64,000 nucleotides of DNA from Bauldia sp. (lineage in GTDB: Bacteria; Pseudomonadota; Alphaproteobacteria; Rhizobiales; Kaistiaceae), in contig JBBCGQ010000001.1 of assembly GCA_037200845.1 (NCBI GenBank), positions 1,240,001 through 1,304,000 of the forward strand, in the 5' to 3' direction. Both the position numbers and the translations under genes were made by a program. This document shows, piece after piece, positions 28,041 to 54,278 of the stretch (position 1 is its first letter; the number at the start of each line of letters is the position of its first letter). The notes beneath the pieces were generated by a model. That model saw only the letters and a list, made by a program, of their open reading frames with translations. It had not been told where the DNA came from and searched no databases.

Positions 28041-29323
28041 GCTGCCTTCCCTTCCGCCCCGGGCTCGACCGAGGCCGACGGCGTCGCGACATTGGGGTCG
28101 TTCGGATCGAGCGGCTCCGGCCCGATCGTGCTGCCGCCCGGCACCGCGGCGCCACGGCGTATCTCCGTCTTCATCTCCGGCTGCTCCGGCGGGCGCTGCC
28201 GCAGCCGGACGAAGACATAGGCGCCGAGCACCACGTAGATCACCGCCGTGTACTGGAACAGCGCCGCGCCGCCGAAATGCCCCATCATCGTCGAGGCAAC
28301 CAGCGGCCCGACGATGGAGCCGAGCGCGCTGGCGAGGAAAAGGCTCGCCGCCGTCTCCACCATCGTGCCCTTGGCGACGCGGTCGTAGGCATGCGCCGCG
28401 GCGATGGAATAGATCGGCGCGATCGCGAAGCCGTAGGGCACGGCGATGATGTACCAGCCAAGCGTCGTCAGCGGCACGAACGCCAGGATCAGCGCGAAGA
28501 ACGTCGCCATGCCGAGCAGCACGGCAAGGACGAAGCGCCGGTCCATGCGGTCCGATGCGCGCCCCACCGGCCACTGCGCGAACGTGCCGGCCAGCGTCGC
28601 GATGGTGAGGAACACCGCCGCCTGCGACGACGACATCCCGTGCCCGACCGCGGCGACGGCGCCGAGCGACCAGTATGCGCCGTTGGCCAGCCCCGAGCCG
28701 AACACGCCGACCAGCCCGACCGGCGCGGCGCGATAAACCGCCTGCGGCCGGAAGCGCACCAGCGCCACCGGCGCCGGCTGCTGCTGCCGCGTCAGCGCCA
28801 GCGGGATCGACGCGATCGCCATCGCGAACGTCGCCACCGCGAACAGCGTGAACGTCATCGGCGAGGCCTGCGTCACCAGGAATTGCCCGAGCGCGAGCGC
28901 CGCGTAGTTGACCATGATGTAGATCGACATGATCAGGCCGCGGTTCTGGTTGGAGGCGCGGTCGTTGAGCCAGCTTTCGATGATCATGTAGAGCCCGGCG
29001 AGCGAGGCGCCGATGATCAGGCGCAGCACCAGCCACGGGCCAAAGGCGACCCACAAGGGATGCGCCACCATCGCCGCCGCGAGCCCGGCGGCCAGCGCCA
29101 TGAAGGCGCGGATGTGCCCGGCGCGCAGGATCAGGTAGGGCGTCGCGATGCAGCCGATGAGGAAGCCGACGTAGTACGCCGAGCCGATGGCGCCGATCTG
29201 GAACGAGCTCCACCCCTCGGCCTCGGCGCGCAGCGGCACCAGCGTGAGCTGCAGCCCGTGCCCGACGATCAGGAAGAACAGCCCGAGCAGCAGCGAGAAG
29301 ATCGGGCGCAGCGTCGTGTACAT
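28037..29323 (-). CDS. YcaD-like major facilitator superfamily transporter
   Basis: 428 residues with about 12 hydrophobic segments and the loop motif GRASDRMDRR (about 255). N-terminal half resembles YcaD (VPLRAEAEGWSSFQIGAIGSAYYVG). A hydrophilic 50-residue acidic C-terminal tail is unusual. The ATG at 29323 follows the dxs stop by 22 bases. It precedes PCuAC and SCO in an overlapping set, so transport of copper or a copper ligand is possible, as for CcoA-type MFS proteins, but not shown. Confidence 0.9.
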   Translation of the reverse strand: MYTTLRPIFSLLLGLFFLIVGHGLQLTLVPLRAEAEGWSSFQIGAIGSAYYVGFLIGCIATPYLILRAGHIRAFMALAAGLAAAMVAHPLWVAFGPWLVLRLIIGASLAGLYMIIESWLNDRASNQNRGLIMSIYIMVNYAALALGQFLVTQASPMTFTLFAVATFAMAIASIPLALTRQQQPAPVALVRFRPQAVYRAAPVGLVGVFGSGLANGAYWSLGAVAAVGHGMSSSQAAVFLTIATLAGTFAQWPVGRASDRMDRRFVLAVLLGMATFFALILAFVPLTTLGWYIIAVPYGFAIAPIYSIAAAHAYDRVAKGTMVETAASLFLASALGSIVGPLVASTMMGHFGGAALFQYTAVIYVVLGAYVFVRLRQRPPEQPEMKTEIRRGAAVPGGSTIGPEPLDPNDPNVATPSASVEPGAEGKAA

Positions 29324-36372: not shown

Positions 36373-36428
36373 CATCCGCTCCGCCGCCGGAATGACGAGA
36401 TGAGAGGGCGGTTTGCCTGTTGTTGAAC

Positions 36429-36480
36429 CCTCCCCTTGCGGGAGGGTCAAAATCGCGAGCGCGATTTTGGGGAGGGGTGT
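36429..36480. repeat. Family C repeat with two hairpins
   Basis: CCCTCCC-CTTGC-GGGAGGG (36429-36447) is followed by AAAATCGCG-AG-CGCGATTTT (36450-36469, 9-bp perfect stem) and a GGGGAGGGGTG tail. Lies between convergent sua5 and the DnaJ gene and may terminate both. Similar elements lie at 50042 and 51266. Confidence 0.75.
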
Positions 36481-36523
36481 CTCTCAGCGAGCAGAGCGCT
36501 AACGCGCCGGAACCGAAGCGGGC

Positions 36524-44660: not shown

Positions 44661-47247
<2,587 letters not shown>

Positions 47248-48469: not shown

Positions 48470-49083
48470 TGACCGAGGCCCCCAAAACCCCGGAGCCCCG
48501 CCGCCGCGTGAACTTCGGCGTCACCGCCGCCGCCTGCGCGGTGTTTGTGGTGGCGATGGTCGGCGCGTCCTTCGCCGCCGTGCCGCTCTACCGCATCTTC
48601 TGCCAGGCGACCGGCTACAACGGCACCGTCCAGCGCGCCGAGAAGGCGCCGGACAAGATCGTCGATCAGTACGTCACCGTCCGCTTCGACGCCAACGTCG
48701 GCAACGGCCTCGGCTGGAGCTTCCGCCCCGACCAGCGCTCGGTTCGTTTGAAGCTCGGCGAGATAGGCACGATGAACTTCCGCGCCGAAAACATCATGGA
48801 CACAACATCGACCGGCTCGGCGGTGTTCAACGTCTCGCCGGACGTCGCCGGCGCCTACTTCAACAAGCTCGCCTGCTTCTGCTTCACCGAGCAGACGCTC
48901 GACCCGCATAAGCCGCAGGAACTGCCGGTCACCTTCTTCGTCGATCCGGCGATGTTGCACGACCTCGACATGAGCAACATCGACACGATCACGCTGTCCT
49001 ATACGTTCTACCCCGCCGCACCCGCGGCGCCGAAGCCCGTCGCGAGCAACGCCGCGCCGGTATCCGCCACCAACCCGCTATGA
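48469..49083 (+). CDS. ctaG: Cytochrome c oxidase assembly protein CtaG/Cox11
   Basis: 204 residues. One N-terminal membrane helix (about 16-38) and a periplasmic domain with the Cu-binding CFCF (in KLACFCFTEQTL). It inserts CuB into subunit I. PLYRIFCQATGYNGT is the family hallmark. Coupled to coxF by TGATG and to coxC 18 bases downstream. Confidence 0.97.
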   Translation: MTEAPKTPEPRRRVNFGVTAAACAVFVVAMVGASFAAVPLYRIFCQATGYNGTVQRAEKAPDKIVDQYVTVRFDANVGNGLGWSFRPDQRSVRLKLGEIGTMNFRAENIMDTTSTGSAVFNVSPDVAGAYFNKLACFCFTEQTLDPHKPQELPVTFFVDPAMLHDLDMSNIDTITLSYTFYPAAPAAPKPVASNAAPVSATNPL

Positions 49084-49944: not shown

Positions 49945-50041
49945 GGAACGGTCCGGGCGAAACATGCCGGTGGCATGTTTCGAGTGACGAACGCACGAGC
50001 GTAAGCGAGGGCCGGAAGGCGCCTCGGCAAATTCTGCTTAT

Positions 50042-50099
50042 CCCTCCCCATTCCGGGGAGGGGGGACCGCGCGAAGCGTGGTGGGTGGGGAACCACGTC
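50042..50099. repeat. Family C repeat between coxC and DUF983
   Basis: CCCTCCCCATTCCGGGGAGG followed by GGGACCGCGCGAAGCGTGGTG and GGGTGGGGAACCACG. Same pattern of a short CCTCCCC hairpin plus GTGGGTGGGG tail as the copy at 51266-51425. Confidence 0.7.
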
Positions 50100-50128: not shown

Positions 50129-50512
50129 ATGCACCCCGAAGACAAAGCCATCTACCCGCCGTTGCCCGCCTCGATCGGCTGGAGCGGCCGCTGCCCGCGC
50201 TGCGGCGAAGGCCGCCTGTTCGAAGGCTTCCTGACGGTCGCGCCGCGCTGCTCCAACTGCGGCCTCGATTTCTCCTTCGCCGACTCCGGCGACGGACCCG
50301 CCGTCTTCATCATGATGATCGTCGGCTTCATCGTCGTCGGCCTGGCGCTATTCGTCGAGTTTACCTTCCACCCGCCGTACTGGCTGCACGCCGTGCTGTG
50401 GGTCCCGCTGATCCTCGGGCTGTCGATTGGCCTGCTCCGCCCGCTCAAGGGCCTGATGATCGCGCAGCAATACAAGCACAAGGCCGAGCTCGGTCAGCTC
50501 GACCAAGGATGA
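50129..50512 (+). CDS. DUF983 zinc-ribbon membrane protein
   Basis: 127 residues. A zinc ribbon CPRCGEGRLFEGFLTVAPRC with a second pair CSNCG (about 21-45), then two hydrophobic segments (about 58-105). DUF983 proteins sit between coxC and surf1 in Rhizobiales and are assumed to act in oxidase biogenesis, without direct proof. The stop overlaps the surf1 start. Confidence 0.92.
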   Translation: MHPEDKAIYPPLPASIGWSGRCPRCGEGRLFEGFLTVAPRCSNCGLDFSFADSGDGPAVFIMMIVGFIVVGLALFVEFTFHPPYWLHAVLWVPLILGLSIGLLRPLKGLMIAQQYKHKAELGQLDQG

Positions 50513-51259
50513 ACCGCGCCCGCCTTGCGCAAACTCATCGCCCCCGCGATCGCCACGTCATCGCCTGCGCCATCCTGATCGGCCTCGGCGTCTGGCAGGT
50601 CGAGCGCCTCGCCTGGAAGGAAAATCTGATCGCGCAAGTCTCGGCGCGCATGACCGCCGCGCCGGTCGCGGCGCCCGGCCCCGTGTCGTGGCCGACCCTC
50701 GACATCGACGCGCTCGAATACCAGCCGGTCACCGTCAGCGGAAAATTCGACAACGCCCACGAGGCTCATGTCATCTACACGCTGACCTCGCCCAAGGGCC
50801 CGGTCGGCGGCGTCGGCTACGAGGTGATGACGCCGCTCACGACCGACGCCGGCTGGACCGTCTACGTCAACCGCGGCTTCGTGCCGAACGAGAAGCGCGA
50901 TCCCGCGACCCGCGCCGCAGGCCAGATCGAAGGCGAGACGGCGGTGACCGGCTTTTGCGCCGCCCGGCCGACCGCGCCTGGTTCATGCCCGGCGACGACG
51001 TCGCCAAGAACGAATGGTTCTCGCGCGATCCCGCGCTGTTCGCCGCCGCCGCGGCGCTCCCGCCGCCGGCGCCGTATATCATCGACGCGAACTACGATCC
51101 GTCTTTGCCGGGCGGTATTCCGCAAGGCGGGGGAAACGATCGTCGACTTCCCGAACAGTCATCTCGGGTTACGCGATTACGTGGTTCGGGCTGGCGGCGT
51201 GCTGCGCGGGCGTGTTCATCGCGTTCGCCGTTGGAAGGCTGCGTCAGCGCGAAAGCTGA
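50509..51259 (+). pseudogene. surf1: surf1 (oxidase assembly) with three frameshifts
   Basis: SURF1 is a membrane protein assisting haem a insertion. The coding frame begins at ATG 50509: hydrophobic CAILIGLGVWQVERLAWKE, then VGYEVMTPLTTDAGWTVYVNRGFVP. It breaks near 50951-50956 (TTTT run, one base lost), resumes as RRPADRAWFMPGDDVAKNEW and DANYDPSLPGGIPQGG, breaks near 51126-51132 (G5 run, one extra), gives ETIVDFPNSHLG, breaks near 51165-51169 (one extra) and ends GYAITWFGLAACCAGVFIAF to TGA 51259. A further break near the start is possible, since another frame reads LRKLIAPAIAT. Either a pseudogene or sequence errors. Confidence 0.85.
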
Positions 51260-51265
51260 CAAAAC

Positions 51266-51420
51266 GCGATCCCCCACCCGAAATCGCCTCGCGATTTCGA
51301 CCTCCCCCGCAAGGGGGAGGTAGGAGTGTGCGGCGCCGCCGGCGAACACAAACTCCGCTTTCCCTCCCCCTTGCGGGGAGGGTGGCCGGCGAAGCCGGAC
51401 GGGTGGGGGACCGCCTTCGA
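51266..51420. repeat. Family C tandem repeat after surf1
   Basis: Contains GAAATCGCCTCGCGATTTC (51280-51298), CCTCCCCCGCAAGGGGGAGG (51301-51320), then CCCTCCCCCTTGCGGGGAGG (51363-51382) and GCCGGCGAAGCCGGACGGG. Lies between surf1 and the convergent YqgE gene and extends to its stop. Confidence 0.8.
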
Positions 51421-51425
51421 TGGCG

Positions 51426-52046
51426 CTACGCGTGACCGGCTTCGCCCGAGAGCCGCCCGAGATCGACACCCATCGTCGATAGCGCCCGCCCGTATTTCGT
51501 CTCGAGGTCCGGATCGAAGATCAGCTCGGGGAGCGCTGGGCAATGCAGCCACCCGTTCGCCTGGATCTCGCTGTCGAGCTGCCCCGGCGACCATCCGGCG
51601 TAGCCGAGCGCCAGCATCGCGCGCTCCGGCCCGTTGCCCGCCGCTATCGCCTTCAGGATCTCCAGCGTCGCCGTCAGCGACACGCGCTCGTCGATCGGCA
51701 GCGTCGAATTCTCGACGTAGTAGTCCGACGAGTGCAGCACGAACCCGCGCCCGGTCTCGACCGGCCCGCCGCGGTGCACCTGCATCCGCCCCGCCGGCCC
51801 CGGCAGGCGTATCTCGGGCCCCTCGGGGATGATGTCGAGCTGCACCAGCAGATCGCGGAACGTGATCTTCTGCGCCAGCTGGTTGATCGTGATGCCCATC
51901 GCGCCCTCAGCCGAATGGGCGCACACGTAGACGACGGTGCGCGCGAACGGCCCCTCGCTGATCGAGGGCATGGCAATGAGGAACTGGCCGTCGAGATAGC
52001 CCCGACCGGACGTGCCTCGCGCACTGACGAGAGGAAGCCTGGCCAT
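51426..52046 (-). CDS. YqgE/AlgH family protein
   Basis: 206 residues, UPF0301. Conserved [37 protein letters not shown], and [21 protein letters not shown]. No catalytic site is known for this family. Intact, in contrast to the frameshifted genes on both sides. Divergent from the DsbD-domain gene. Confidence 0.94.
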
Positions 52047-52183
52047 TGCCGGAAAAAGCTACCACGCCGGAGTCAAAAGGAAAGTGCGCCGCAGTCGCAG
52101 CGCACGCCGGGAAGCTGCGCGGTCACGAACAAATGAGCCATGGTTGTTGTTCCACCAGCGCCGCTGCCGCTATGTTCCGCGCC

Positions 52184-52995
52184 ATGAAATCCGCCGTCAT
52201 CCTCGCCGCGCTGTTAACGCTGCCCAGCATCGCCGCCCATGCCGCCGTCGGCGACTGGGTCAAGGGCCAGCGCGCCGAGGTGCGGCTGCTCGCCTCCGGC
52301 ATCGGCGCGGACGGCAAGCTCGCCGCCGGCGTCGAGATCGCACTGCCCGACGGCTGGACGACCTACTGGCGCAACCCGGGCGATGCCGGCATCGCGCCGC
52401 TGTTCGATTTCAGGGCGTCGCAGAACGTTGGCGCGACGGAAATCGCCTATCCTGTTCCGACGCGCCAGGATGACGGTGCCGACACGGTGACCAACGTCTA
52501 CGTCGGCAGCGTCGTCTTCCCGGTGTCGATAGCGATCCCCGATCCGTCCCGGCCGATCGATGTCGGCCTCACGCTGCACCTCGGCGTCTGTCAGCAGGTC
52601 TGCGTGCCGGAGGACGTCTCGGTGACGCTCGCCGTTCCGGCCGGCGAAAGGGACGCGGCGGCGGACAAGGAAATCTCCGCCGCCCGAGCCCGCGTTCCCG
52701 GCGCCACGCAGCCCGGCGCATTTGCGCTGGATACCGTGACGCGCAACGGCGGCACCGACCGCGGCCCATCTTCCGCTTCACCGGCACGGTGCCGGATGCG
52801 GAGAACGCCGTCGTTTTCGTCGAAGGTCCGGATGACTGGGCGCCCTACACGCCCGAGTTTGTCCCGGGCGACAAGCCCGCGTGGGATGTCGCGTTCTCCC
52901 GCACCGGCGCCAAGACGCCGATCGCCGGCGCGAAATTCCGGCTGACTATCCAGTCCGGCGCCAAGGCGATAGACCAGACTCTCACCCTCAACTAG
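52184..52995 (+). pseudogene. DsbD-domain periplasmic protein, one frameshift
   Basis: Signal peptide (MKSAVILAALLTLPSIAAHAA) then a DsbD-type N-terminal domain: PDGWTTYWRNPGDAG, DTVTNVYVGSVVFPV and LGVCQQVCVPEDV with a CxxxC pair. The frame breaks near 52755-52767 (one base missing) and continues as PIFRFTGTVPDAENAVVFVEG to TLTLN and TAG at 52995. The span of 812 bases is one short of a 270-residue gene. Predicted to handle periplasmic thiol-disulfide exchange if intact. Confidence 0.82.
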
Positions 52996-53012
52996 CAACA
53001 GGCAGCAGCGAC

Positions 53013-53495
53013 ATGATCAAGGTGGGCGATCGCCTTCCGGAAGGCACGTTCCGGGTAAAGCAGGACGACGACTCGGTGAAGGAAGTGCCGGTCTCCGATC
53101 TCTTCAAGGGCCAGAAGGTGGTGTTCGTCGGCGTCCCCGGCGCCTTCACCTCGACCTGCCACAAGGCGCACATCCCGCAGTTCGTCACCCACGCCGGCGA
53201 GCTGAAAGCCAAGGGCGTCGACCGCATCGTCGTCATGGCCGTCAACGACCATCACGTCATGAAGACCTGGAGCGAGTCGCTCGGCGGCCACGGCAAGATC
53301 GACTTCGTCGCCGACGGCGACGCCGTCTACGCCGGCGCGCTGGGCCTCGCCATCAAGATCCCCGGCATGGGCACCCGCGTCCGCCGGTTCTCGGCGCTGG
53401 TGGAAGACGGCGTCGTCAAGACGCTGAACTTCGAGCCGGACGGCGGCAAGGGCATCCAGACGACGGGCGCGGCGACGATTCTGGGGCAGCTTTAA
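53013..53495 (+). CDS. Peroxiredoxin, Prx5 type
   Basis: 160 residues. Peroxidatic Cys in VPGAFTSTCHKAHIPQF (Cys near 48, PxxxTxxC). Prx5/AhpE-like proteins reduce H2O2 and alkyl hydroperoxides. Sequence is intact and typical in length. It begins 17 bases after the DsbD-domain gene. Confidence 0.95.
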   Translation: MIKVGDRLPEGTFRVKQDDDSVKEVPVSDLFKGQKVVFVGVPGAFTSTCHKAHIPQFVTHAGELKAKGVDRIVVMAVNDHHVMKTWSESLGGHGKIDFVADGDAVYAGALGLAIKIPGMGTRVRRFSALVEDGVVKTLNFEPDGGKGIQTTGAATILGQL

Positions 53496-53507
53496 AATCC
53501 ACTGACT

Positions 53508-53586
53508 GTCGTCCCCGCGAAGGCGGGGACCCAGTACACATTGACCGTTCGTTGCTTACCGGATGCCCGCCTGCCCGGCATGACAG
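53508..53586. repeat. Family A copy after the peroxiredoxin gene
   Basis: Left arm GTCCCCGCGAAGGCGGGGAC with CCAGTA (53508-53536); right side CCGGATGCCCGCCTGCCCGGCATGACAG (53559-53586) is only partly inverted. Directly upstream of the 120-bp MITE-like element. Confidence 0.7.
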
Positions 53587-53620
53587 CAGCGTGTAGTTCA
53601 ACGACGCCATCAGCCCCCCG

Positions 53621-53740
53621 CTGTCATCCTTCGGCGGCGCGCAGCGCCGACCGGAGGACCAGCTTCAGCATATCGCTCCAATAATGATTATGCCGCGATA
53701 GGTCCTCCGGTCGCGGCTCCGCCGCGCCGAAGGATGACAG
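53621..53740. mobile_element. 120-bp MITE-like inverted-repeat element
   Basis: Two 40-base arms (53621-53660 and 53701-53740) are inverted: outer parts CTGTCATCCTTCGGCG and inner parts CGACCGGAGGACC match exactly, with 11 central bases that differ. The 40-base spacer is AT-richer (CCAATAATGATTATGCC). No coding capacity. Lies just 3' of rnhA, so the frameshifted rnhA frame runs into it. Resembles short dispersed repeats of Rhizobiales; mobility is inferred. Confidence 0.65.
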
Positions 53741-54278
53741 TGGTGGGGAGGTGGCGGCGGAGCCGCCATCGCCCGGGCGGCAGCGCGGGTGGCGAGGCCG
53801 ACAGCGGCACAGAGCAGAAGCTACTTCCGCTTCGCCGGCTTGAACGGCGCCATCCCTCGTTTGCCAGCACGTCCGCCCGCTCGTTGCCGTGCGTGCCCGC
53901 ATGCCCTTTCACCCAGTGCCACTTCACGTCATGCTTGGCCGCCAAAGCATCGAGCTTCTGCCACAGGTCGACATTCTTCACCGGCTTACGATCGCTCGTC
54001 TTCCAGCCGTTCCTTTTCCAGCCCGCCACCCAGCCCATGACGCCGCCGCGCACGTATTGCGAGTCGGTGTAGAAATCGACCGCCGTCGGGCCCTTGAGCG
54101 CCGACAGCGCCTCGATCGCCGCGGTCAGCTCCATGCGGTTGTTGGTGGTCAGCGCCTCGCCGCCCTTGAGGTCCTTCTCGTGCCCGTCCCACATCAGCAC
54201 GGCGCCCCAGCCGCCCGGCCCGGGATTGCCCGAGCAGGCGCCGTCGCTCCAGATCTCGACGCGCTTCTTATCGCTCAC
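53688..54278 (-). CDS. rnhA: Ribonuclease HI with frameshifted C-terminus
   Basis: Degrades the RNA strand of RNA-DNA hybrids. Catalytic Asp12, Glu50, Asp72 and Asp136 are all present, plus WVKGHAG. Near 53853-53858 one base is missing: the expected end [10 protein letters not shown] would stop at 53821, but the present frame runs on to 53688 with 53 odd residues, including part of the MITE-like element. The catalytic core is intact, so the product may still work. Overlaps thrB by 4 bases. Confidence 0.9.

Follow-up and report, generated by a model that had tools for sequence, protein, structure and literature searches.

Six one-base breaks of the reading frame were found by profile alignment within 3.3 kb, in three genes (surf1, a DsbD_N-domain gene and rnhA) and on both strands. 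We hold it to be highly likely that they are insertion and deletion errors left in low-quality patches of the consensus, and that they do not reflect gene decay. The genome is a single contig of 3,152,584 bases, of which the window (the whole 64-kb stretch that was analysed) comprises bases 1,240,001-1,304,000.

Frame breaks between surf1 and rnhA

The genes of the stretch are arranged in the order cox3, a DUF983 gene, surf1, yqgE (minus strand), the DsbD_N-domain gene, a peroxiredoxin gene, rnhA (minus strand) and thrB (minus strand); the names cox3, DUF983 and thrB are presumptive, being given from reading the sequence. Among the best 80 matches listed for cox3, the best named ones were from Hyphomicrobiales MAGs, a Parvibaculum MAG and rhizobia. 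The comparison set consisted of 27 relatives of the same family, none of the same genus. The surf1, DsbD_N-domain and rnhA genes lie within a few kb on one contig in 25 of them, and in the other two (G007 and G012) rnhA is on a separate contig.

Frame breaks were determined by a frame-aware alignment of the DNA with protein profiles of up to 27 family relatives, in which a one-base change of frame costs 12 bits; since the alignment allows one-base breaks only, larger breaks are not callable as such. The loci of 32 relatives were fetched around cox3, the profiles were built from the 27 of the same family, and each relative was left out of its own profile when aligned. Two rows whose tblastn match was interrupted by a stop (cox3 in L105 and DUF983 in L124) and one truncated by a contig end (the DsbD_N-domain gene in L109) were excluded. 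The resulting features are collected in Table 1.

Table 1. Positions in the window of the genes and one-base frame breaks of the surf1-rnhA stretch
Feature	Position	Strand	Family	Observation
surf1	50509..51259	+	SURF1 family, PF02104	Spread over several frames; four breaks
surf1 break 1	50545..50560, ends near 50559	+		One-base loss of frame; profile alignment
surf1 break 2	50951..50956, near 50954	+		Loss; profile alignment and joined HSPs from 19 relatives' loci
surf1 break 3	51126..51133, near 51129	+		Gain, at a five-base homopolymer; profile alignment
surf1 break 4	51163..51169, near 51166	+		Gain; profile alignment and joined HSPs from 6 relatives' loci
yqgE	51426..52046	-	PF02622	Intact; no frame break by profile alignment
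DsbD_N-domain gene	52184..52995	+	PF11412 (E=1.4e-16)	Single frame break
DsbD_N-domain gene break	52755..52767, near 52764	+		Loss; profile alignment, codon-frame scan and joined HSPs from 7 relatives' loci
Peroxiredoxin gene	53013..53495	+	Redoxin, PF08534	Intact; no frame break
rnhA	53821..54278	-	RNase_H, PF00075	Broken near the 3' end; continuous frame extends to 53688
rnhA break	53853..53860, near 53857	-		Loss; profile alignment

All five breaks that an earlier note had listed from the sequence were recovered within a few bases by profile alignment (breaks 2 to 4 of surf1 and those of the other two genes), but that list was not complete, as surf1 has a fourth, break 1. It had gone unseen because both frames are open at this site; the shifted frame scored 30.9 bits over 15 columns, compared with -19.3 for the unshifted one. 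Two starts are conceivable for surf1, ATG at 50509 and TTG at 50525, the second of which is in frame with the family sequence; the TTG calls for no extra break, and the ATG requires a fifth. The first piece of surf1 (50509-50955) matched PF02104 with E=1.6e-30 and 107.4 bits against a cut-off of 23.4, which places it in the SURF1 family. In all 27 relatives surf1 is one open frame, and its best PF02104 match is free of stops and reaches profile position 205. In rnhA, positions 2-139 of the 141 of RNase_H lie before or at the break. Given that the domain is nearly whole up to that point, the enzyme might be functional even if the break were real.

No frame break was found by profile alignment in cox3, the DUF983 gene, thrB or ispH, and the earlier statement that YqgE and the peroxiredoxin are intact was borne out in the same way. 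The peroxiredoxin was more diverged than its neighbours, with a profile score of 307 against a median of 468 and a minimum of 292 in the relatives. The comparison with relatives that the earlier note had recommended for the three broken genes was carried out for the same nine genes, and none of the 228 alignments covering them in the relatives contained a frame break. An Rfam scan of the window returned no matches, and a promoter and terminator scan yielded nothing useful.

Search for breaks in the rest of the window and genome

The window and 60 further 20-kb stretches (1.264 Mb in total, 40% of the genome) were scanned by a hidden Markov model of the codon frame, with the genome itself as training data, and the 32 relatives' loci served as a control (440 kb, all from the cox3 neighbourhood and so not a random genome sample). 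Of 400 single breaks planted as a test, the scan recovered 159 (about 40%), and of the six breaks of the surf1-rnhA patch it recovered two. Frame switches for which no stop in the preceding frame could account numbered 57 in the 1.264 Mb and six in the relatives' 440 kb; the 57 are for the most part candidate calls, and some are ordinary gene overlaps, such as that at window position 28086, which was rejected as a break since it reads as two ordinary overlapping genes. The calls were clustered: 41 pairs lay within 3 kb of each other, compared with a simulated mean of 7.1 and a maximum of 19 in 2000 trials, and 18 such pairs remained when the window and the worst stretch were left out, against a simulated maximum of 13.

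In the remainder of the window, where the earlier note had reported no such breaks, none was established and the call at 28086 was the only one flagged, but this holds at the modest sensitivity of the scan given above. Over the 22.2 kb of the window that the relatives' proteins span, the other apparent joins were rejected: that near 45577 came from antisense open reading frames, those at 60.2-60.9 kb coincide with gene boundaries, and those near 48499 (three loci) and 55273 (one locus) fall at gene starts in the list of open reading frames.

Elsewhere in the genome, patches spanning about 1-9 kb were found in unrelated genes. The densest (L246:11338-19959, genome about 302-311 kb) holds 10 frame-switch calls over 8.4 kb, and among the genes that it crosses are pieces that match an IMS-type polymerase in Pfam and an error-prone DNA polymerase and HtpX in NCBIfam, the NCBIfam matches falling under the whole-protein cut-offs because only pieces are present. 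Profile alignment confirmed seven breaks in the error-prone polymerase gene and none in 14 relatives (14 of 24 were kept; the other 10 were dropped, their locus beginning inside the gene). Likewise, edd, encoding phosphogluconate dehydratase (L257:10814-13046, minus strand, genome about 1121-1123 kb), has TIGR01196 matches in separate frames and three profile-confirmed breaks, with none in 21 relatives. About 70 kb upstream of surf1, two different frames hold the parts of glcE (L143:245-1400, genome about 1.2209 Mb): positions 8-196 of one GlcE model lie in one and 212-348 in the other. The broken genes, namely surf1, the DsbD_N-domain gene, rnhA, edd, the error-prone polymerase gene, the htpX-like gene and glcE, have no function in common.

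Several further observations were made in these regions. One piece of the error-prone polymerase (L246:15077-16501) contains at residues about 363-416 an extra in-frame segment that resembles a translated dispersed repeat, and many of the relatives' matches end at about 362 and restart at 397-417. An ABC transporter ATP-binding gene and the sequence following it carry four scan calls within 0.7 kb (L277:3208-3918, genome about 2.681 Mb). A small protein that looks secreted seems to be spread over three frames within about 370 bases at L152:7050-7700 (genome about 2.587 Mb). What appears to be a truncated MFS-type transporter, named by its look, occupies two frames at L135:13100-14300 (genome about 193.6 kb), and it is perhaps a true remnant gene.

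Nature of the breaks and rival readings

The 16 profile-confirmed breaks in surf1, the DsbD_N-domain gene, rnhA, edd and the polymerase gene comprise nine losses and seven gains. The remark in the earlier note that several breaks lie at homopolymers was borne out in this set, which includes two genes outside the window: runs of at least three equal bases were present at 11 of the 16, compared with 35% of random positions, in what is a small sample. Two candidate causes for the location of the patches were rejected. As regards extreme G+C, five of six patches lie at the 52nd-79th percentile of 3-kb tiles, the L152 patch being at the 99th. As regards dispersed repeats, 25% of the 57 calls have one no more than 1.5 kb away, versus 19% of random positions; there are four such places in or within 1 kb of the surf1-rnhA patch and none at the L246 patch. 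Short intergenic repeats in or beside the surf1-rnhA patch (50040-50090, 51269-51324, 51360-51417 and 53701-53751) each match 2-5 times elsewhere in the 1.26 Mb sampled, and a short dispersed repeat at 36420-36491 of the window does so up to 35 times.

Substitutions were assessed at conserved columns, defined as the same in at least 95% of relatives and counted away from the breaks. Altered columns amounted to 3/176 in surf1, the DsbD_N-domain gene and rnhA taken together, compared with 16/679 in six intact neighbours. For edd and the polymerase gene the result was less clear-cut: 12/336 and 10/315 (together 22/651) come close to the highest values seen in the relatives, and the changes are scattered and mostly conservative. 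When the five broken genes were pooled, 25/827 columns were altered, against 19.5 expected at the neighbours' rate (calculated by hand). No stop was met in the read-through of any of the five genes. Thus the stops and conserved-residue loss that would accompany indels in a pseudogene were not seen, although a very recent decay by indels only would escape this test. Four signs of consensus error, by comparison, were found: the breaks are absent in relatives, indels dominate, genes are struck irrespective of function and also elsewhere, and homopolymers are over-represented.

The earlier note had offered two readings, a local sequence or assembly error and a recent decay of oxidase-assembly and redox genes. 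A decay specific to those functions was rejected, given that rnhA, edd, the error-prone polymerase gene, the htpX-like gene and glcE are also broken. A wider real decay, in which a recent series of one-base indels inactivated surf1 and the DsbD_N-domain gene, altered the tail of rnhA and struck edd, the error-prone polymerase gene and others, appears improbable to us. It would account for breaks that are present in the sequence as given, the single PF02104 match in the genome leaves surf1 with no intact copy shown there, and the L135 locus does resemble a truncated transporter gene. Yet real indels would be expected to come with substitutions. In the excerpted results of PMC5854121, wild-type Vibrio mutation-accumulation lines gave 219 substitutions to 60 indels and 138 to 22. 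At the neighbours' rate about 4 altered columns would be expected in the three genes, and six indels at the Vibrio ratio would add about 4-8, making about 8-12 (by hand), whereas three were seen. The lack of stop codons and of a common function likewise speaks against decay, and four breaks in one 750-base gene exceed what decay needs.

Real bursts of one-base indels in short stretches, whether from local mutagenesis or from a mismatch-repair mutator, would fit the clustering of the breaks and their bias to short homopolymers, and in the available part of PMC5854121 the indels of mutS-deleted Vibrio lines were mostly of one base (93.6% and 85.7%). According to the same excerpt, however, substitutions in a mutS line of V. 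fischeri numbered 4,313 against 382 indels, an excess with no parallel here, and a general mutator would leave its breaks scattered genome-wide instead of gathered in patches; we therefore consider this origin very improbable. That the patches are real and record bursts of several indels within a few kb, with hardly any substitutions, in the manner of clustered mutation showers but made of indels, strikes us as very improbable too. One of the broken genes is the error-prone polymerase gene itself.

Collectively, the occurrence of patches in unrelated genes, the near-normal conservation and the absence of breaks in relatives lead to residual consensus errors as the preferred reading, and it is the assembly-error reading of the earlier note that these findings and the homopolymer excess favour. 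A badly resolved stretch at about 50.5-53.9 kb of the window would, in this single-contig assembly, have kept one-base errors in its consensus, possibly through low read depth or failed polishing, and the cells themselves would carry intact surf1, DsbD_N-domain and rnhA genes; both the source of the errors, in sequencing or in consensus building, and the state of the genes in the cells are judged from sequence comparison. Several points weigh against consensus errors: the column changes of edd and the polymerase gene lie high in the relatives' range, gains nearly equal losses, neither G+C nor repeats explain the patch sites, and the relatives' 440 kb also contain six unexplained switches.

Consequences and comparison with known systems

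The patch is very probably an assembly artefact and as such an ordinary finding, whose value lies mainly in the warning that it gives. Despite a completeness score of 99.54% (contamination 0), plain gene calling could score surf1, the DsbD_N-domain gene, edd and the error-prone polymerase gene as absent or pseudogenised. The breaks are not usable as evidence for a loss of SURF1, the DsbD_N protein, Edd or the error-prone polymerase from the organism, and for a species known from one assembly, claims of gene loss require reads or a frame-aware check against relatives.

The broken genes resemble bacterial pseudogenes in that their frames are interrupted and the family sequence resumes in another frame. 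They differ from them in that stops and a functional theme are lacking, conserved residues are not lost in excess from the three genes, and patches are present elsewhere. Gene-fragmenting indel errors of long-read bacterial assemblies are reportedly also the concern of Homopolish (PMC8011154). Long-read assemblies carry such errors, which give rise to false pseudogenes, according to the part of the Kastor report available (PMC12007338). The nanopore example in that part shows mostly false deletions, whereas gains nearly match losses here; unlike the errors described in it, moreover, the present breaks are gathered into patches about 1-9 kb long. With those long-read errors, as far as the same part of PMC12007338 describes them, the present breaks share these features: they are one-base indels, often beside homopolymers, and they split unrelated genes that are intact in relatives.
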